From IMG/VR virus record IMGVR_UViG_3300022920_000033, positions 1 to 26,177 of that record: a DNA stretch of 26,177 nt. One strand, given 5' to 3'. Each line of letters opens with the position of its first letter. Positions within the stretch are counted from its first letter, which is position 1. The position numbers and the translations under genes are program-made. Shown piece after piece: positions 8,163 through 26,177 of this stretch. The stretch is from a virus. The notes below the pieces were generated by a model, which saw only the letters and a list, made by a program, of their open reading frames with translations, ran no database searches and had not been told where the DNA came from.

Positions 8163-9290
8163 TTATGTATTCGGTTTGTTTTGTGCTCGTAATATGCGAC
8201 CAAGCTCATTATTTTTTTGCTTTAGTTGCTTTATTGTTAAAGGGTTAAACTGCTCATCAAGTGTAGCCTTAGCAAATTGTGCGGGGTTATCCATTTTCCT
8301 GAATGCCTTGCCAAGTGTAGGGCCAAGTATATTATCTTGGTCTGTATCATCTAGGTTAGCCATATTAGCATAATAAATGGAATCACTATCTATAGGTTTA
8401 GGGTCACGCTTACCATCTACATTAAATGATGATGCCTTCTTGGTTTCATCGCTATCTAATTTGTATTTGTCAGCAACCTCAAATGTTAAAGCAGACCTAC
8501 AATTAGGGTGCAAAGGCGGGGTGGCTTTTTTTAAATCCGAACTGCCAGCCTTGAAAACTCGCTGGTCTAAGCTTCTGCACCTGCTTGATGTTTTTGAGTC
8601 GTTAACAGCTAAGAACCTATAGCCTTCTAATAGCTCATCATTAGTATCAACAAAAGCTATCCTAGCGGTATTAGCGTAATGATTTGTACCAGTAACAGCC
8701 AGGCTTCTCGCTGACCTTCTCGCTCTATCAAAAACCGACTTAGTAGTGCCTGACTTTGAAACCTCTATTTGTGACAATATAGAATTAGTTACTTCACGAA
8801 TCGTAGCGCCTTCTTGAAAGCCATTTAATACAATGCCGTCAACTTCATTAGACCATTTCTTCCAATAGCTAGAAATCATAGAAGAATAAGAAGTGTAACT
8901 ATTATCGCCAAGCTTAATAGGTGTAATAGTGGCAACGCTATTAATAGCCGCTGCGCTAGGTGATACCGCGTTAAAATCTTCATCATCAATTAAGCCGTTT
9001 AATGTGCTTGCTGCAAGCTCTCCCTCGTAAGCGCCTAAAGCCCTGTTTTCAACTTTAAGTTGTGAAGTGTAATCTTGTAAGTGCTTACGCGATGAATCGT
9101 TTATCTCCTTTTGTATAGCCGTCTGCAATGCCGCAGTTATTTTACGCTTACGATACTTATTAAGAATAAAAACAACATCATTTTCAATAAGCTCAAGATA
9201 AGGCGTAACTTTGAAGCCTTCAGTAGCGCCTAACCTCTGCAAGAAAACTGTGTGTTGAGAATATATCGTTGTAAGTTGCTCACTTGGCAT
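8163..9290 (-). CDS. Head morphogenesis / minor head protein (Mu gpF, SPP1 gp7 family)
   Basis: 375 residues. The diagnostic C-terminal module is at residues ~200-268: GTNHYANTARIAFVD, then FLAVNDSKTSSRCRSLDQRVF and ATPPLHPNCRSAL. This is the family's 'D-x-x-T-x-x-x-C-x-x-x-D-g-x-x-F ... P-P-x-H-P-x-C-R' signature, with C238, D242, H261 and C264 as likely metal-binding residues. The N-terminal half is helical and binds the portal in the studied members. Such proteins are packaged in few copies near the portal vertex and may be ejected with the DNA. Its first 11 bases overlap the methyltransferase gene. Confidence 0.85.
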   Translation of the reverse strand: MPSEQLTTIYSQHTVFLQRLGATEGFKVTPYLELIENDVVFILNKYRKRKITAALQTAIQKEINDSSRKHLQDYTSQLKVENRALGAYEGELAASTLNGLIDDEDFNAVSPSAAAINSVATITPIKLGDNSYTSYSSMISSYWKKWSNEVDGIVLNGFQEGATIREVTNSILSQIEVSKSGTTKSVFDRARRSARSLAVTGTNHYANTARIAFVDTNDELLEGYRFLAVNDSKTSSRCRSLDQRVFKAGSSDLKKATPPLHPNCRSALTFEVADKYKLDSDETKKASSFNVDGKRDPKPIDSDSIYYANMANLDDTDQDNILGPTLGKAFRKMDNPAQFAKATLDEQFNPLTIKQLKQKNNELGRILRAQNKPNT

Positions 9291-10035
9291 TTATGCGCTC
9301 ACTTGCAATTTTAAAATAACCTTCGTCCATTTCAATACCTATAAATTTACGGTTTAGGTTTTTAGCTGCTACGCCTGTGCTGCCGCTGCCCATTGCAAAG
9401 TCTAAAACTGTTTCGTCTTCGTTAGTGTAGGTTTTAATTAGGTATTCCATTAAGGCTACAGGTTTTTGTGTACTGTGAAGTCGGCTCTGAGCTGAGAAAT
9501 CTCTAGGGTAAGTGTGTATTGTTTTTGGGAACCTAACACCATTGTTCACCTGTTTAATAGGTTTTAGACCTAAAGCGTGGTTATTAGTTGCAGAACCTCG
9601 GTTATCTCTTGTGTAAGGTGTACCTTCTTCCATCTGAGGATTATATGTCAATCTTCCACTGCCGAAAATAACAATATCCTCATGAGATTGCATAGGTTTT
9701 ATCTTTGCCAGTGCAGGTTGTGTGCCTTTATTCTTGTCCCATACCATACAATATTTAAACATTTTGATGTTAGAACTAATCAACGTAGTTGTAAAGGGTT
9801 GGCTTGCTGTCATTACAATAGCGCCATTAGGTTTAATAATGCGTTTTAGCTGCTCCCACATTGGCTCTAGTGGAATAATCGAGTCCCATTTACAAGCAGT
9901 TGTTCCATAAGGCGGGTCAGTCAATATCATATCAACACTACCACTTTTAATTTCTTTCATTCGCTCAAGGCAATCCCCAAGCATTAGGTTAGGGTTATAC
10001 AATTCAGTCTCCCTTTGTTCGTCATAATGAGCCAT
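9280..10035 (-). CDS. DNA methyltransferase, DPPY type (probably N6-adenine, beta class)
   Basis: 251 residues. Motif IV (DPPY) is at 40-43, preceded by LGDCLERMKEIKSGSVDMIL; a HSTQKP element follows at 187-192, and the SAM-binding motif I DFAMGSGSTG is at 212-221, then FIGIEMDEGYF. Catalytic motif before SAM motif marks the beta class, and DPPY favours adenine-N6 over cytosine-N4. All key motifs are intact, so it should be active. No cognate restriction endonuclease is nearby, so it is an orphan phage enzyme, likely protecting virion DNA or mimicking host methylation. It is unusual in sitting inside the structural operon, overlapping the portal gene by one base and the head morphogenesis gene by 11. 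Confidence 0.9.
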   Translation of the reverse strand: MAHYDEQRETELYNPNLMLGDCLERMKEIKSGSVDMILTDPPYGTTACKWDSIIPLEPMWEQLKRIIKPNGAIVMTASQPFTTTLISSNIKMFKYCMVWDKNKGTQPALAKIKPMQSHEDIVIFGSGRLTYNPQMEEGTPYTRDNRGSATNNHALGLKPIKQVNNGVRFPKTIHTYPRDFSAQSRLHSTQKPVALMEYLIKTYTNEDETVLDFAMGSGSTGVAAKNLNRKFIGIEMDEGYFKIASERINAK

Positions 10036-21180: not shown

Positions 21181-21194
21181 CTATTAATTGCAAT
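21174..21194 (+). promoter_or_regulatory. Perfect inverted repeat, likely operator
   Basis: ATTGCAA, seven-base spacer CTATTAA, TTGCAAT: both arms are perfect. It lies between divergent promoters, overlapping the leftward -35. A 21-bp site with two half-sites about one and a half helical turns apart fits a dimer of the Cro-sized HTH protein encoded at 21266. Confidence 0.6.
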
Positions 21195-21207
21195 ATATCG
21201 TAAATAG

Positions 21208-21236
21208 TTTGCATTATCTTATTAAAGGCGTATTAT
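21208..21236 (+). promoter_or_regulatory. Putative promoter for the HTH regulator mini-operon
   Basis: TTTGCA (four of six), 17-base spacer, TATTAT (five of six), start near 21243, then AAGGA and ATG at 21266. The -35 lies within TTTGCATTAT, the inverse of the ATAATGCAAA repeat found at 11626 and 11657. Confidence 0.5.
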
Positions 21237-21265
21237 TCAATCATCAACTATTATTAAGGAATAAC

Positions 21266-21457
21266 ATGAAAGTATCAGAGTTACTACGAACGGCAATGGC
21301 AAAGAAAGGCATTAAAAACGCAACTGAGTTATCAAAGCTTACTGGCGTTAAATATGGGACAGTAGCAAGAGCAATCAATAACCAGAATGTCGGTGTTGTT
21401 GTTGTTGTTGAGTTGTTAGATTTTATGGGCTATCAATTAAAAGCAGAGGCTAAATAA
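21266..21457 (+). CDS. Cro-sized HTH DNA-binding regulator (XRE-like)
   Basis: 63 residues from the ATG that follows AAGGA by five bases; an in-frame upstream ATG (21188) would add residues read from the promoter region and is rejected. The helix-turn-helix occupies NATELSKLTGVKYGTVARAI (~18-38), with typical 'A-T-x-L-S-x-x-T-G-V-x-x-x-T-V-x-R-A-I' spacing. A V-rich helix and LLDFMGYQLKAEAK follow. It likely binds the inverted repeat just upstream, regulating itself and the leftward operon. No dimerisation or cleavage domain is present, so this is not a CI-type repressor. Confidence 0.8.
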   Translation: MKVSELLRTAMAKKGIKNATELSKLTGVKYGTVARAINNQNVGVVVVVELLDFMGYQLKAEAK

Positions 21458-21458
21458 A

Positions 21459-21521
21459 ATGAAATTAATCGACTTAATAAACAAATCCGCTGAATTTTTT
21501 AATGAACTGTTTGGGTGCTGA
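21459..21521 (+). CDS. Possible 20-residue peptide
   Basis: MKLIDLINKSAEFFNELFGC: an amphipathic helix ORF beginning just after the HTH gene's stop and ending one base before the next ATG. It may exist mainly to couple translation of the following gene. There is no clear ribosome binding site of its own beyond AGAGG about eleven bases upstream. Confidence 0.3.
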   Translation: MKLIDLINKSAEFFNELFGC

Positions 21522-21522
21522 T

Positions 21523-21774
21523 ATGAATACTAAATTTACAAAAGGTGATTGGAATATTTCGTTTGTTGGCGATGCCACTTATATCGACTCTGACACAGGG
21601 CTTACGATAGCCCGTGTATTTGATATGGAAGGCAGTCCACACGATGCAAGTTTAATATCCTCTGCTCCTGATATGTACGCAATGTTAGAGATGTTAGTTA
21701 ATGGCGATAGTATTAATGATAATTCTATAGAAAAAGAAGTTTTAACTCTTTTAGCTAAAGCGCGTGGAGAATAA
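21523..21774 (+). CDS. Conserved small phage protein of unknown function (83 aa)
   Basis: MNTKFTKGDWNISFVGDATY, DTGLTIARVFDMEG, HDASLISSAPDMYAMLEMLV, KEVLTLLAKARGE. The 'F-T-x-G-x-W ... D-A-x-L-I-[AS]-x-A-P-[DE]-M-x-x-x-L-E' pattern is a recurring phage early-region family of unknown role. I chose the ATG at 21523 because an upstream ATG (21502) lies inside the 20-residue ORF and would lack the family's start. Confidence 0.65.
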   Translation: MNTKFTKGDWNISFVGDATYIDSDTGLTIARVFDMEGSPHDASLISSAPDMYAMLEMLVNGDSINDNSIEKEVLTLLAKARGE

Positions 21775-21775
21775 C

Positions 21776-21949
21776 ATGAAAGGGATTAGCGATGAACTTA
21801 ACAACCAAGTAAAGCGCGAATGCTTGCTTAAATCCGCCATCACAAGTGTAAAAAAGCAAAAGGAAGATGAGCGCCCTATTAACCGTAGACGTATAGAAGA
21901 TATATTAGAGGCTAAACGAATTGAAAAAAGTATGCAGCTTGATTATTGA
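21776..21949 (+). CDS. Small basic protein of unknown function (57 aa)
   Basis: MKGISDELNNQVKRECLLKS, TSVKKQKEDERPINRRRIED, ILEAKRIEKSMQLDY. Charged and helical, last gene of the mini-operon, followed within 20 bases by a terminator. The ATG at 21776 follows TGGAG by six bases; a GTG at 21764 is possible but less likely. May be a nucleic acid-binding helix bundle. Confidence 0.6.
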   Translation: MKGISDELNNQVKRECLLKSAITSVKKQKEDERPINRRRIEDILEAKRIEKSMQLDY

Positions 21950-21992: not shown

Positions 21993-22012
21993 ATTGCCTT
22001 TGATTTACAGAT

Positions 22013-22039
22013 AAAAAAATACCTCACGCTAATGAGGTA
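22013..22039 (-). terminator. Intrinsic terminator of the minus-strand mini-operon
   Basis: Minus strand TACCTCA, loop TTAGCG, TGAGGTA followed by TTTTTTT: a perfect 7-bp stem, facing the plus-strand terminator at 21968. It closes the operon that starts at the promoter at 23469-23497. Confidence 0.75.
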
Positions 22040-22088
22040 AAAATGAAAGATGTATCTTGTCGGGCACTTTCTTTCCGTGTTCAGTGTA

Positions 22089-22349
22089 TCACGCTTTATG
22101 CGCCATTAAATAATTAAACTCTGTCTGCTGAATACTCTTTACTACATCACCATAAAGCCCGTTAGATGTTGCCTTTATAACGCTCCTGCAAGCATTAAAC
22201 AATATTTTATCTTTGGTTCTGTCGCGTATAACTTTACAGCACTTTGATATCTTAATTGCTCTCGCCTTTTCTGGTAAAAACTTGTGAACCTGGTTACACA
22301 ATAAAATTGATAGTGTGTCGGTTTGAATTGTTTTTGCTGAGTCACTCAT
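22089..22349 (-). CDS. Hypothetical early-region protein (86 aa)
   Basis: MSDSAKTIQTDTLSILLCNQ, then KFLPEKARAIKISKCCKVIR and KATSNGLYGDVVKSIQQTE. Helical, with four cysteines (including a CC pair) and basic middle. A good AGGAG ribosome binding site is located eight bases before the ATG. It is the last gene of the four-gene mini-operon and overlaps the upstream membrane ORF by 8 bases. Family not recognised; could be a host-takeover protein. Confidence 0.55.
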   Translation of the reverse strand: MSDSAKTIQTDTLSILLCNQVHKFLPEKARAIKISKCCKVIRDRTKDKILFNACRSVIKATSNGLYGDVVKSIQQTEFNYLMAHKA

Positions 22350-22482
22350 TGTTACTGCCTCCTGTTAAAATCATAAGTAAAACCCCAAAGTGCAATAAAA
22401 GTTGATTACCTATACTCATATCGAGAGTAAACGAAATTGACATTACACAAAGAAAAGCGCCTAACATTTTTAAATAAATCAT
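22342..22482 (-). CDS. Miniature membrane protein (46 aa)
   Basis: MIYLKMLGAFLCVMSISFTL, then DMSIGNQLLLHFGVLLMILT and GGSNNE: two short hydrophobic helices with a turn, the topology of a small holin or superinfection-exclusion protein. AAGGG lies nine bases upstream of the ATG. The end overlaps the following gene by 8 bases. A small membrane protein so early in the operon more likely affects host physiology or exclusion than lysis. Confidence 0.5.
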   Translation of the reverse strand: MIYLKMLGAFLCVMSISFTLDMSIGNQLLLHFGVLLMILTGGSNNE

Positions 22483-22506
22483 TCTTCTATCCCTTCTTGG
22501 TGTTTG

Positions 22507-22929
22507 TTAAAAATTATTACTTGCTGTCTTTTTGTATGACTGATGATTCTCGTCTATTTCATACTCGCAAGGAAATACACTTTCACTTTCAATCTGCTTT
22601 GATAATTTACCAATCGTTAGGGTTTTCATTTGAGGTCGGCCGTAAGATTCGCCATTTGGTAAAATATAATGATACTTGACGATAACTCTATTCATGTATT
22701 TACCGGGCATTTCTGCAATAGACATAACCTCATAGCGTATTTTACCCATGAAATTAGCAGTCCAATAAACACACTCTCGACAACCCCACCCTTGGTCTTC
22801 TTGCTCAGTATCACGATGACAGCCAGGAGTTAACATTGTTTCGATAACTCCATTATAAAATCCACAACCTTGATTATGAAAAGGGTATTCAATATCAAAA
22901 GTGTCTCCTTGCTTGAATTCAATCATCAT
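22507..22929 (-). CDS. Hypothetical protein with cysteine/histidine cluster (140 aa)
   Basis: It contains NQGCGFYNGVIETMLTPGCH, QGWGCRECVYWTANFMGKIR, and a beta-rich C-terminal half (RVIVKYHYILPNGESYGRP) ending ...CEYEIDENHQSYKKTASNNF. The C/H cluster (C22, C37, H38, C50, C53) could bind a metal ion. I recall similar 'GCHRDTEQ' phage proteins of unknown function. It follows the DUF551-like gene with a 30-base gap and a GGGGAATG ribosome binding start. Confidence 0.6.
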   Translation of the reverse strand: MMIEFKQGDTFDIEYPFHNQGCGFYNGVIETMLTPGCHRDTEQEDQGWGCRECVYWTANFMGKIRYEVMSIAEMPGKYMNRVIVKYHYILPNGESYGRPQMKTLTIGKLSKQIESESVFPCEYEIDENHQSYKKTASNNF

Positions 22930-22959
22930 TCATTCCCCTGTTTTGTTTGATGTGGTTAG

Positions 22960-23427
22960 TTACTCGTCATTAGCCGCAACTAGGCTTAATCCGCTTTTAT
23001 AAGTGTACTCTGGCTTTTCTGGCATAGCCATCCAGAAATCAACTAGGAACGGCGAAAGGTAAAGTGGCTCTCCATCCATCCTGAACTCATCACAACCTTC
23101 AGAAATAAACCATATACCACTATCCGCATCATAGTAGCCGACACAAGTTTCCTCTATTTCTCCAAGGTAAATTATAACCGTATCAAATGGAGTGGGAAGT
23201 TCGTCGGCTGTCTTTATCCATAACTTGCTATTACTTACTTTGCTACACAATGCTTTATCCAGCTCTATATAAACCACTTCAGGCGCTCTATTTCCTTTAT
23301 GGTCAGTCAACCAGTAAGCTGTGTTATCATCTTTATCATCTCCGTGGCTTACACTCTCGCTTACATTAAAATAAGCGCCATCCCTGTGCCCGACTGTTAA
23401 ATCTCTTTCGTAGTAAGTTACTTTCAT
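22960..23427 (-). CDS. DUF551-like phage protein (155 aa)
   Basis: The C-terminal half matches the DUF551 pattern: WIKTADELPTPFDTVIIYLG at 70-89, GYYDADSGIWF, then VDFWMAMPEKPE at 129-140 ('W-I-x-x-x-D-x-L-P ... V-T-H-W-M-P-L-P-x-x-P'). The N-terminal ~65 residues are a different beta-rich part (VTYYERDLTVGHRDGAYFNV). DUF551 proteins are common, small, accessory phage proteins whose role is unknown. First gene of the four-gene leftward mini-operon with its own promoter. Confidence 0.7.
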   Translation of the reverse strand: MKVTYYERDLTVGHRDGAYFNVSESVSHGDDKDDNTAYWLTDHKGNRAPEVVYIELDKALCSKVSNSKLWIKTADELPTPFDTVIIYLGEIEETCVGYYDADSGIWFISEGCDEFRMDGEPLYLSPFLVDFWMAMPEKPEYTYKSGLSLVAANDE

Positions 23428-23468
23428 TAGTTATTCCTTTTTGTTTGATTAGTTATTAACTGAGATAA

Positions 23469-23497
23469 ACAATAGCTAAAATAATTCTTGACGTCAA
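23469..23497 (-). promoter_or_regulatory. Leftward promoter of the DUF551 mini-operon
   Basis: Minus strand TTGACG (23497-23492), 17-base spacer, TATTGT (23474-23469). The -35 lies within the palindrome TTGACGTCAA shared with the rightward promoter. Confidence 0.65.
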
Positions 23498-23516
23498 GCG
23501 CAAATGCAATTATATT
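23488..23516 (+). promoter_or_regulatory. Rightward promoter of the replication operon
   Basis: TTGACG (23488-23493), 17-base spacer, TATATT (23511-23516): a near-consensus sigma70 promoter, start near 23523. The spacer and -10 are covered by CAAATGCAATTATATTTG (23501-23518), an inverted repeat CAAAT/ATTTG likely to be an operator. Confidence 0.75.
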
Positions 23517-23547
23517 TGTAATCACATTAACGAAAGAGGTTTATTGA

Positions 23548-23745
23548 ATGAAGGTATTAAATGTTAGGTTTAGCGATACGCAGCAACTAAAGATAAAAGA
23601 TGTATCTAGTGTTGTTGATATGGATTATAGCAAAGTAGCAAGGGCAGCAATGAAGCTTGGTTTAGCTCAGATACAAGCGTTAGCAGCTAGAGATTTAGAT
23701 AAGGCTATTGATTTAGTCTTGATTAATGACGCTAGAGCGAAGTAG
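23548..23745 (+). CDS. Ribbon-helix-helix regulator
   Basis: 65 residues: MKVLNVRFSDTQQLKIKDVS, SVVDMDYSKVARAAMKLGLA, QIQALAARDLDKAID. A first beta strand with alternating residues (VLNVRFS), a helix and a second helix with 'VARAAMKLGL' give the Arc/MetJ/CopG-type ribbon-helix-helix fold, which binds DNA as a dimer via the paired N-terminal strands. It has an AAAGAGG ribosome binding site. As the first gene after a divergent operator-promoter, it probably represses its own and the leftward promoter. Confidence 0.75.
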   Translation: MKVLNVRFSDTQQLKIKDVSSVVDMDYSKVARAAMKLGLAQIQALAARDLDKAIDLVLINDARAK

Positions 23746-23747
23746 AA

Positions 23748-23774
23748 ATAAAAAAGCGCCCTCTGAAAAGCGCT
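23748..23774 (-). terminator. Minus-strand terminator-like hairpin between plus-strand genes
   Basis: Minus strand AGCGC, ten-base loop, GCGCT followed by TTTTTATTT. The stem is only five GC-rich pairs. On the plus strand no T-run follows the hairpin. It would stop antisense transcripts arriving from the right before they enter the control region. Confidence 0.4.
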
Positions 23775-23801
23775 AATTGATTCGACCGAGGATATTATAA
23801 C

Positions 23802-24488
23802 ATGCACTACTATCAATTCAATATAGGTGATTACGTCAGCTCAACTCAACACCTAGATGAAACAGAAGATCTTATATATAGAAGAATGATGGATATTTAT
23901 TATTCAAAAGAGCTTCCTTTACCAGTTGATCAAAAAGACATAGCTAGATTAATAAGAATGCGAACGCATAGCGACAGCATTGCGACCGTACTGCACGAAT
24001 TCTTCACGTTAAAAAAGGATGGTTACCATTGCCAAAGGGCAGACAAAGAAATTTTAGCGTTTCAGTCTAAATCTGACAAGGCTAGGAAGTCAGCCGAAGC
24101 AAGATGGAATAAAAACAAGGACTTACCGTTAAAAGAAGGTGATGCGAACGCATTGCGAACGGAATGCGGAGGCAATGCTAAACATAAAACACTAAACACT
24201 AAACAAGAAACAGTTAAAGACAATACATCATTTATCAATGATGGCTTCGATCACTTTTGGAAGAGTTATCCTAAAAAGGTTGATAAAAAGAATTCTTTTA
24301 CTAAGTTTAAACTCGTTACTAAAAAACTTAATGATGATGAATTCACTGATTTTGTAAATCTAATAACTACCGATTGCAAAAAAAGATTCATTGATACTGA
24401 GGTTAACTTTATACCAAGCGCAGCAAAGTATTTAAATGGTGAGCGATGGAATGATGAAATGATAGGAAGCAATCAAGATGGGAGTTGA
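23802..24488 (+). CDS. DUF1376-type replication initiator (lambda O-like role)
   Basis: 228 residues. The N-terminal DUF1376 domain is clear: MHYYQFNIGDYVSSTQHLDE, TEDLIYRRMMDIYYSKELPL, then DKARKSAEARWNKNKD. A polar linker with ECGGNAKHKTLNTKQETVKD follows, then a C-terminal DnaT/replication-type domain (FDHFWKSYPKKVDKKNSFTK, ...IPSAAKYLNGERWND). Such proteins bind the phage origin and recruit the helicase encoded next, with which it overlaps by 11 bases. The DNA in the linker region carries repeats discussed elsewhere. Family is confident; the origin-binding role is inferred. Confidence 0.85.
   Translation: MHYYQFNIGDYVSSTQHLDETEDLIYRRMMDIYYSKELPLPVDQKDIARLIRMRTHSDSIATVLHEFFTLKKDGYHCQRADKEILAFQSKSDKARKSAEARWNKNKDLPLKEGDANALRTECGGNAKHKTLNTKQETVKDNTSFINDGFDHFWKSYPKKVDKKNSFTKFKLVTKKLNDDEFTDFVNLITTDCKKRFIDTEVNFIPSAAKYLNGERWNDEMIGSNQDGS
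23958..24153 (+). repeat. Exact 12-bp repeats inside the initiator gene (possible origin iterons)
   Basis: ATGCGAACGCAT at 23958-23969 and again at 24142-24153. Each is followed by a related CATTGCGA(A/C)CG element (23979-23989 and 24151-24161); the second array continues GGAATGCGG...CAATGC. Lambda places its origin iterons in the O gene, so an origin here is plausible. Confidence 0.45.
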
Positions 24489-25884
24489 ACATGAGCAATC
24501 ATTGATCGGTGGATTGATGAAGATAGCCAGTAGTGAATCTGAAATAGCGAGCTTTATATTATCAACTTTAAAGCCAGCTTCTTTTTCTATTCGTATAAAT
24601 AAAGAAATATACAAGGCGATATTATTATTGAATGCTAATAAAATGTATTTTGATAATTTATCTGTGATGAAGCAGTTAGAAAAAAATGACTGGGTTGAAA
24701 TTAGAGATATAGATTTATGTTACCAGTACGCTGCTGACGGTTCTTTATTGAGACAATATTCAACAGCAATTAAAGAAGAATCAATGGAAAGATTTTCTGT
24801 TGCAAAAATAGCCGACATTCAAGACATGATAACCAACCCTGAAAATGGAAATATTGGCCAGCGTTTAGGTTTAGCTGAATCGGTAATTTCTGGATTAATT
24901 GAGCAGATGCAAAACCGTGAAGAGAAAGGGTTGCGTGATGCTGGTTACTGGGCTGGCCAATGGATTGATGACAAAGAAGCTTATCACTCAGGTAAACAGA
25001 TAAGTTATACGCTTGGCATTCAAGGCATTGATGATGCTTTCAAGCCAAAAGGTGTGCTTCCTGGCTCTTTGGTTGTCGTTGGCGCAAGACCTAAAATGGG
25101 TAAAACATTTACTGCCGTTAAAATTATTGATCACTTCTTGAAGGAAACAGGTAAATCAGTTTGTGCTTTTTCGATGGAGATGCGAGGTGTTGATATTTGG
25201 GAAAGAGCAATGTCTAGTCGTGGGCGTGTTGACTCAGATAGTTTTTATTCTGTATCGATGGAAAATACAGGGTTTTGGGATCATGCTGGTGGAATTAATA
25301 ACGAACTGGCAAACTCTGAGTTTTATCTGGATGATAGTCCTTGTGTGAGTATGTCTAAGATTAAAAAAGAAGTACGCGAAGTTCATCGTAAAAACCCTGT
25401 TGGATTGGTTATGGTTGATTACTTAACTTTAATGGGTACAGAAGAGGCAGAAAGAAACGATCTTAAATATGCCGCAATCACAAAAGAGTTGAAGGTACTG
25501 GCTAAAGAGCTTGGTTGTGTGATCTTATTGTTGATTCAGTTAAACCGCGGATTAGAAAACAGACCTGATAAACGACCTGTCCCAAGTGATGGTCGTGATA
25601 CTGGCCAAATAGAGCAAGATTGTGATGTGTGGATTGGGCTGTATCGTGAAAGCGTCTATAACGCAGATTGCGGGCATACTTTAACCGAGGCTATAGTTAG
25701 GCTTAATCGTGCAGGAAGTAACGCGACAGCTTATCTAGAGCTGAATAATGGCTACTTTGAAGATGTAAATCAGCTGGATGCACACAGGCAAGTTGAAACA
25801 GTCAAAGCTGAAAAACGTAAACAGGAGCAAGAAGAAGATGAGCAATCAACATTTAAAGGTCGAGGAAAGCGAGCTAGACTTTAG
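24478..25884 (+). CDS. dnaB: Replicative DNA helicase (DnaB-like)
   Basis: 468 residues. The N-terminal DnaB domain (residues ~4-110, HEQSLIGGLMKIA...) is followed by the RecA-like C-terminal domain: Walker A GARPKMGKTF at 202-211, FSMEMRGVDIWERAMSS, Walker B VGLVMVDYLTLM (D314), motif with Q354 (LLLIQLNRGLENRPDKRPVPSDGRDTGQIEQDCDVW split by known motif 3/4). The C-terminus is a charged tail (EKRKQEQEEDEQSTFKGRGKRARL in part). It unwinds the phage fork in a hexamer and is loaded by the initiator encoded just before it. The ATG is preceded by AGGAAG eight bases upstream. All catalytic motifs look intact. Confidence 0.92.
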   Translation: MGVEHEQSLIGGLMKIASSESEIASFILSTLKPASFSIRINKEIYKAILLLNANKMYFDNLSVMKQLEKNDWVEIRDIDLCYQYAADGSLLRQYSTAIKEESMERFSVAKIADIQDMITNPENGNIGQRLGLAESVISGLIEQMQNREEKGLRDAGYWAGQWIDDKEAYHSGKQISYTLGIQGIDDAFKPKGVLPGSLVVVGARPKMGKTFTAVKIIDHFLKETGKSVCAFSMEMRGVDIWERAMSSRGRVDSDSFYSVSMENTGFWDHAGGINNELANSEFYLDDSPCVSMSKIKKEVREVHRKNPVGLVMVDYLTLMGTEEAERNDLKYAAITKELKVLAKELGCVILLLIQLNRGLENRPDKRPVPSDGRDTGQIEQDCDVWIGLYRESVYNADCGHTLTEAIVRLNRAGSNATAYLELNNGYFEDVNQLDAHRQVETVKAEKRKQEQEEDEQSTFKGRGKRARL

Positions 25885-26008
25885 GATTAGATTTAAAAAT
25901 GAATATGGAATTGATTATTATGAAGCTATCGACAACATAAAACGAAAGCAAGAAGTTAGAAATCAGTGGTGGCATAACATGTGCGTTTTATATAAATGGA
26001 ACGTTTAA
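25838..26008 (+). CDS. Small helical protein overlapping the helicase end (56 aa)
   Basis: MSNQHLKVEESELDFRIRFK, NEYGIDYYEAIDNIKRKQEV, RNQWWHNMCVLYKWNV. It starts in another frame 47 bases before the helicase stop, with AGGAG about ten bases upstream and GAAGAAG nearer. Aromatic, charged and amphipathic; no domain known. The overlap length suggests real coupling rather than chance, but a late start is also possible. Confidence 0.5.
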   Translation: MSNQHLKVEESELDFRIRFKNEYGIDYYEAIDNIKRKQEVRNQWWHNMCVLYKWNV

Positions 26009-26032
26009 AGCATAAAACATAAGGGTTATAAG

Positions 26033-26080
26033 ATGAGTATATTGATCGTGAAGATTTATTTTAAGGAGTGTAAGAGATGA
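26033..26080 (+). CDS. Possible 15-residue leader peptide
   Basis: MSILIVKIYFKECKR with AAGGG seven bases before its ATG. Its TGA overlaps the methyltransferase ATG (ATGA), so it could couple translation into that gene. The methyltransferase also has its own AAGGAG nine bases upstream. Too short to be sure. Confidence 0.25.
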   Translation: MSILIVKIYFKECKR

Positions 26081-26177
26081 ATGTATTAAGTTTATTTAAC
26101 GGAATGAGTTTCTGCTCAATGGCTTTAGAGTCATTAGGCGTTAACGTCAATAAAATGTATTCAAGTGAAATTGATAA
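26077..26177 (+). CDS. DNA cytosine-C5 methyltransferase, N-terminus only
   Basis: Partial, runs off the right edge. MNVLSLFNGMSFCSMALESL, then GVNVNKMYSSEID: this is the SAM-binding motif I region of C5 methyltransferases of the type 'V-L-S-L-F-D-G-M-S-x-x-x-x-A-L', followed by the acidic 'Y-x-S-E-I-D' motif II. The usual 'F-x-G-x-G' is FNGMS, as in several phage enzymes. Catalytic PC motif lies outside the window. It would be the second DNA methyltransferase of this phage. Confidence 0.8.
   Translation, partial: MNVLSLFNGMSFCSMALESLGVNVNKMYSSEID

Follow-up and report, generated by a model that had tools for sequence, protein, structure and literature searches.

A marine phage with a candidate divergent promoter pair sharing one palindromic -35 element

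In the viral record of a marine phage analysed here (the window, meaning the whole stretch of 26,177 bases), the ten-base palindrome TTGACGTCAA at 23488-23497 gives TTGACG as a -35 hexamer on each strand, the two hexamers overlapping by 2 bases, and sequence comparisons support a divergent promoter pair with one common palindromic -35. We judge it probable that this is a genuine back-to-back sigma-70-type pair whose -35s have merged and whose predicted operons compete for initiation. Our best explanation is built on the sequence itself, the conservation of the palindrome, a series of -35 spacings among relatives and the changing genes on both sides.

The promoter pair and its operons

Features of the region:

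23488-23497, no strand: palindrome TTGACGTCAA, -35 of both predicted promoters; also in L002, L003, L004, L198, L206, L192, L199 and L205
23488-23516, plus strand: predicted rightward promoter TTGACG-17-TATATT, 10/12 hexamer match, -10 at 23511-23516
23469-23497, minus strand: predicted leftward promoter TTGACG-17-TATTGT, 9/12 hexamer match, -10 at 23474-23469
23501-23518, no strand: imperfect inverted repeat CAAATGCAATTATATTTG, spanning the rightward -10; not significant
23548-23745, plus strand: gene 1 of the rightward operon, a small 65-aa protein that may be ribbon-helix-helix
23755-23774, minus strand: G+C-rich stem-loop in the gap between genes 1 and 2, terminator-like on the minus strand only (leftward transcription); pattern match
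23802-24488, plus strand: DUF1376 primosomal-type protein, second rightward gene
24478-25884, plus strand: DnaB-like replicative helicase, third rightward gene
22960-23427, minus strand: 155-aa protein of unknown function, first gene of the leftward operon
22507-22929, minus strand: 140-aa protein of unknown function (phrog_30464), leftward operon
22089-22349, minus strand: 86-aa protein of unknown function, leftward operon
22020-22039, minus strand: terminator-like stem-loop and T run after the leftward operon; pattern match (2 found, 2.3 expected)

The pair lies in an intergenic region of 120 bp. On both strands a sigma-70-type -35 and -10 are separated by 17 bases, within the 16-18 base range for the spacer. 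The -10 hexamers lie on opposite sides of TTGACGTCAA, and the predicted starts, near 23523 rightward and near 23462 leftward, are about 60 bp apart. An earlier note on this DNA had proposed that the ten palindromic bases serve as the -35 on both strands with 17-base spacers, and the coordinates and spacers are as it claimed. Both -10s are plausible, but its description of good -10 elements both ways is generous, as the left one, TATTGT, matches 4 of 6 bases. The inverted repeat that it placed over the rightward -10 is present, with 7 of 9 positions paired, but 21% of shuffles equal it. As an operator CAAATGCAATTATATTTG was rejected on that figure, and in L003 it is not the best repeat.

TTGACGTCAA occurs once in the window, against 0.01 expected. 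A promoter scan of 22000-26177 runs at chance (15 found, 14.9 expected). In Markov sequence, a shared 10-base block with two -35 matches (at least 4/6) and two -10s arises 0.18 times per 26 kb, and the same arrangement with both -35s at least 5/6, as in the window, was found in none of 60 simulated windows. Since the scan equals chance, hexamer counts are uninformative and the weight of the evidence is comparative; a chance origin of the promoter pair was rejected on the relatives, not on the hexamers themselves.

A search for relatives of the leftward 155-aa protein gave none. At 21188-21949, pointing towards the leftward accessory operon, a short gene cluster runs rightward and includes a Cro/C1-type gene.

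Relatives of the first rightward gene and the -35 spacing series

The family of the 65-aa protein comprises 16 members: the window, L002-L010, L105, L106, L108, L109, L110 and L112, the last from a Colwellia MAG. Outside it we left L011, a fragment of the gene that lacks upstream DNA, L111, which aligns at 45% over 42 residues, and the distant isolates L092-L096; L097-L104 and L107 duplicate L002-L010. The earlier note had suggested looking for the palindrome in relatives, and it is retained in the three closest, L002, L003 and L004, all found by protein, so that four of the 16 members carry it. In the left half, the right spacer and the right -10, L002 and L004 are 89-100% identical to the window; L003 is only 42, 46 and 50% identical there and keeps all ten palindrome bases.

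Judged from the upstream regions, divergent promoters are a predicted feature of the family. In all 16 members the first ATG is preceded, at 58-62 nt, by a rightward -35-like hexamer, and in 13 a rightward -35 (at least 5/6) with a -10 lies within 140 bases (2.1 expected). Ten of the 12 palindrome-less relatives have, no more than 140 bases from the ATG, a leftward TTGACA without mismatch and a -10 spaced 16-18 bases from it (0.12 expected); the remaining two, L008 and L009, have leftward TTTACA with TATTGT. Eight of 17 upstream regions share the leftward -10 motif ACAATA(G/A)C; counted by hand on the sequences, its distance to a -35-like hexamer is 16-17 nt.

The distance between the two -35s is +46/+47 in L005, L006 and L105, +34 in L010 and L110, +21 in L007, +14 in L008 and L009, and -10 in the window, L002, L003 and L004, where the two form one palindrome. 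Spacing in the eight unfused relatives of this series was scored with -35s of at least 5/6 on both sides; in L106, L108, L109 and L112 the distance is about 34, as taken from hexamer positions. Counting against our best explanation, L106, L108 and L112 have no pair with -35s of at least 5/6 on both sides, and in L109 the usual rightward promoter is accompanied by an abutting pair, TTGACC-18-TATAAT to the right and TTGACA to the left, that lies 105 bases upstream of the ATG of its gene for the small protein. In a gene tree the four palindrome carriers group together on one side of a modestly supported branch (64/91, recovered in 68% of bootstrap trees), so the -35 fusion may be a single derived event in the family. 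These four are close relatives and the other five contigs with the palindrome were picked by it, so the nine are not independent observations.

The palindrome before other genes

A strict scan requiring TA...T 17 bases away on each side of the palindrome, which misses spacers of 16 or 18 bases and 12-base forms such as that of L012, retrieved 19 viral contigs, including the three of L002-L004; three other palindrome scans were biased by their flanking bases. Among genomes of the Colwellia MAG's order, 0 of 148 contain the strict pattern, and the fused state is known from few metagenomic contigs. Five loci were selected by the palindrome, so that its presence in them is no test and only its setting is informative. 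In L198, L206 and L192 it stands before a different first gene, weakly ParC-like (NCBIfam ParC match at E 0.007 for L206 and none for L192; the analogous L012 gene matches at 4e-5), and the genes that come next in L198 and L206 share 84 and 82% identity with L003's second gene. The first ATG is 51 nt past the palindrome in 7 of 7 cases, with two unrelated kinds of first gene. In L199 and L205 a third kind of gene follows the palindrome; the L205 gene matches phrog_270 (replication initiation) weakly, at E 3e-5.

L012 was not selected by the palindrome: it is the best relative of the window's DUF1376 protein (55%) among the best 80 of 598 loci. At 2666-2677 it has the abutting form TTGACATGTCAA, with both -35s at consensus and TATTGT at 17 bases both ways; the ATG is 60 nt from the -35 start, and the ParC-like gene follows downstream. 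This form fits two -35s better than an operator with fixed half-site spacing. The best 80 of 598 DUF1376 loci, less L042, L045, L055, L067 and 8 duplicates, leave 68 distinct loci, and four of these have a strict divergent pair (0.2 expected). The -35s count as overlapping in L012 and are 3, 24 and 7 bases apart in L013, L021 and L069.

Divergent starts, defined as ATG starts within 160 bases on both sides with no spanning frame of at least 100 aa, are found at 12 of the 19 distinct strict sites. Where palindromes were selected on an unrelated flank the count is 0 of 26, and where the scans required one -10 it is 6 of 31. When the spanning-frame condition, which excludes L002's own contig and L209, is dropped, the counts become 14/19, 4/26 and 9/31. 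This control for context is partial, because A- and T-rich intergenic DNA favours TA...T by chance. By our own reading the 12 divergent sites fall into six lineages: the window phage group, L199/L205, L200, L138, L210 and L211.

Alternative explanations

The palindrome could instead be chiefly an operator: the small ribbon-helix-helix (RHH) protein would bind GACGTC, shut both promoters and autoregulate its own operon, with the -35 overlap as the means of repression. We consider this unlikely, though a serious possibility. The earlier note had called the protein encoded directly downstream RHH; a small gene is there, and the label is plausible but weak, its matches lying under the family cut-offs. 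In profile searches of the 16 family members, DUF6290 matches four (best E 0.044) and RHH_3 one (E 0.17), all below cut-off. The model of the 65-aa protein (mean pLDDT 82) has helices at 10-23 and 27-37 followed by two more, with no strand assigned in residues 1-9; in the RHH fold, the strand pairs only in the dimer. A fold search of the PDB with this model gave no match at E ≤ 0.001, and a sequence search of the PDB gave one weak, unrelated match. Of 394 genomes of the order, one has the RHH-like gene (the Colwellia MAG, L112) and none the first gene of L206; a plasmid search gave no match. Among isolate phages, distant relatives of the gene occur in 5 records, with no palindrome within 130 bases upstream.

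MetJ, an RHH repressor, binds AGACGTCT, and GACGTC resembles the MetJ box. Elsewhere the palindrome does lie beside RHH genes, in L138 (RHH_3, E 8e-14; Arc-like phrog_3180, E 1e-14) and in L211 (Arc-like phrog_582, E 3e-7), where three GACGTC boxes surround the gene, and within the family N-terminal residue 5 separates the four palindrome carriers, with N or S, from the other 12, with P, G or T. Against this, the records of L198, L206 and L192 (35.6, 37.0 and 14.6 kb, possibly incomplete) carry the palindrome with no RHH-profile match at E ≤ 1. GACGTC occurs once in the window, with 1.7 expected, and TGACGTC once each in the records of L002, L003, L004, L192 and L206 and twice in that of L198, the second copy lying, by eye, inside a reading frame. 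L012 shifts the half-site spacing by two bases and keeps both -35/-10 spacings. Nor does the palindrome track the regulator: the gene is found without it in 12 of the 16 family members, among them L005 and L006, whose protein is 82% identical. This mismatch weakens the operator rather than excludes it, as related proteins could have other sites. From the single site, the occurrence without a detected RHH gene and the spacing in L012, we argue that -35 function is the main constraint on the window palindrome; operator and -35 functions may coexist.

Likely operators were seen in other phages. At 6334-6440 of L211, the Arc-like RHH gene has its three GACGTC boxes near the start, likely an autoregulatory operator array. 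In L117, L124 and L135, by eye, TTGACGTCAA lies inside a larger inverted repeat of the TAAATA...TATTTA type, which suggests an operator there.

It is improbable that only the rightward promoter works, the leftward half being a coincidence or leftover and the left operon starting elsewhere. The left -10 at 4/6 and the chance-level promoter scan would agree with it, but the perfect leftward TTGACA of 10 of 12 relatives and the recurrence of the leftward -10 motif in 8 of 17 upstream regions would not; moreover, the TCAA end of the palindrome, which the right promoter does not need, is kept in L003, where the next 13 bases are 46% identical. The prospect that another phage or host regulator has the palindrome as its site is about as slim: a Cro/C1-type gene is present at 21188-21457, but matches to it (three spanning most of its length at 30-35% identity, the fourth covering 21 residues) were found in 4 of 14 phages tested, one of six with the palindrome and three of eight without, a distribution that does not follow the palindrome and on which this protein was rejected as the regulator.

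Changing genes and module edges

The genes flanking the merged pair differ among the nine fused contigs. Their first left genes, that of L002 included, show no mutual blastp match at E 0.01; in a comparison made without L002's first left gene, a later left gene pair of L003 and L206 is related (49%). In local alignments of the nine, a block touches the palindrome in 17 of 36 pairs, and 10 of these 17 blocks end at its edge. Left homology ends at the palindrome in window/L198, L002/L198, L003/L206, L003/L192, L003/L199 and L004/L199; right homology ends there in window/L003, L002/L003, L198/L206 and L198/L192.

Because ten identical bases attract alignment ends, we repeated the alignments with the palindrome masked. 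Blocks on the right then start between +21 and +28, those on the left stop at -12 or -14, and L003/L192, L003/L199 and L004/L199 no longer have a block. Only L003 and L206 remain alike right up to the left border of the palindrome (94% over 53 bases); past it they are unlike (42% over 60 bases), and homology resumes from +255. The piece exchanged between these two would be the right promoter half and the first gene, not the whole operon. The 66 left edges of the 12 unfused relatives comprise 28 at +16 to +24 and 6 at -2 to +10, the rest ranging from -125 to +76; edges near the rightward -10 are therefore a family trait, and edges inside this promoter are not peculiar to the fused form. Flanking genes thus appear to have been exchanged with boundaries inside the core promoter. 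The palindrome as the exact recombination joint was weakened both by masking and by the edges of the unfused relatives.

A bolder reading, which we hold to be doubtful, is that of a second class of bidirectional promoter based on -35 symmetry: -35s that slid together would couple the replication and accessory operons, and the palindrome would be a joint for exchange of a gene plus its -10 that leaves two working promoters.

On the left sides of window/L002 and of L003/L206, the left promoter and ribosome-binding region are retained and the next gene differs.

Competition between the two operons

We infer promoter activity, exclusion and competition for the window pair as follows. The rightward promoter would drive the replication operon and the leftward promoter the short accessory operon, with host polymerase engaging the palindrome in either orientation; the bound states would overlap and exclude each other. 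From the geometry it is fair to expect that polymerase bound at either promoter would cover the core of the other. Each initiation would clear the site, giving competition, not a latch, and the output ratio of the operons would be set by the two -10/spacer halves and any regulator.

The earlier note had gone further, making the two operons mutually exclusive even without a repressor. We do not find this supported: polymerase leaves the promoter after each initiation, so the expected outcome for the two operons is competition, not exclusion, and E. coli promoters with a shared -10 compete only at raised activity. Basal activity was too low for competition at 5 of 5 such promoters tested, and an improved -35 raised transcription in its own direction and greatly reduced the opposite one, the exception being bdcR, where the -35 change gave no stimulation (PMC12825309). 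In the window, each -35 gives up its sixth consensus base to the palindrome (G in place of A), a loss that the 12-base form of L012 avoids. We see no sign that the palindrome acts as an either/or switch; a coupling of the operons is plausible.

Relation to known systems

In ordinary back-to-back phage promoters, two early operons leave a common intergenic region in opposite directions. The window pair has the same layout, but its -35s overlap, whereas those of other family members are separate. It shares with MetJ/Arc-type RHH operators a GACGTC core like the MetJ box and an adjacent small RHH-like gene, and differs in being a single site and in that the palindrome is also found without an RHH gene. 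In lambdoid phages, boundary or linker sequences are short common stretches where exchanged modules meet; in the phages compared here the stretch held in common is promoter DNA, and the alignments do not pin down the exact joint.

Bidirectional bacterial promoters have been explained by -10 symmetry. They have an overlapping -10 and divergent starts 7-25 bp apart (PMC10268837), and the window pair falls outside this definition of Warman et al. The likeness to their promoters is that polymerase would use a single symmetric core element facing either way, so that binding one way would exclude binding the other way; theirs have the -10 in common, whereas the window pair has the -35 in common and predicted starts about 60 bp apart. 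PMC12825309 classes separate divergent promoters as not bidirectional, and in the parts of it consulted we found no discussion of overlapping -35s. In the literature searched we recognised no description of a shared -35 promoter pair, a phrase that is hard to search.

A natural homologous series in which the -35s are 47, 34, 21 and 14 apart and then overlap would let the effect of spacing, from independent to competing promoters, be measured. Should the palindrome prove to be a swap point as well, it would illustrate how genes can move between mosaic phages with no loss of promoters. We consider the fused end of this natural promoter-spacing series to be the more interesting part.

Other features of the window

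The frame at 9280-10035 looks by eye like a DNA methyltransferase (DPPY motif), and 26078-26177 appears, also by eye, to hold the start of a cytosine methylase that is cut by the end of the window.
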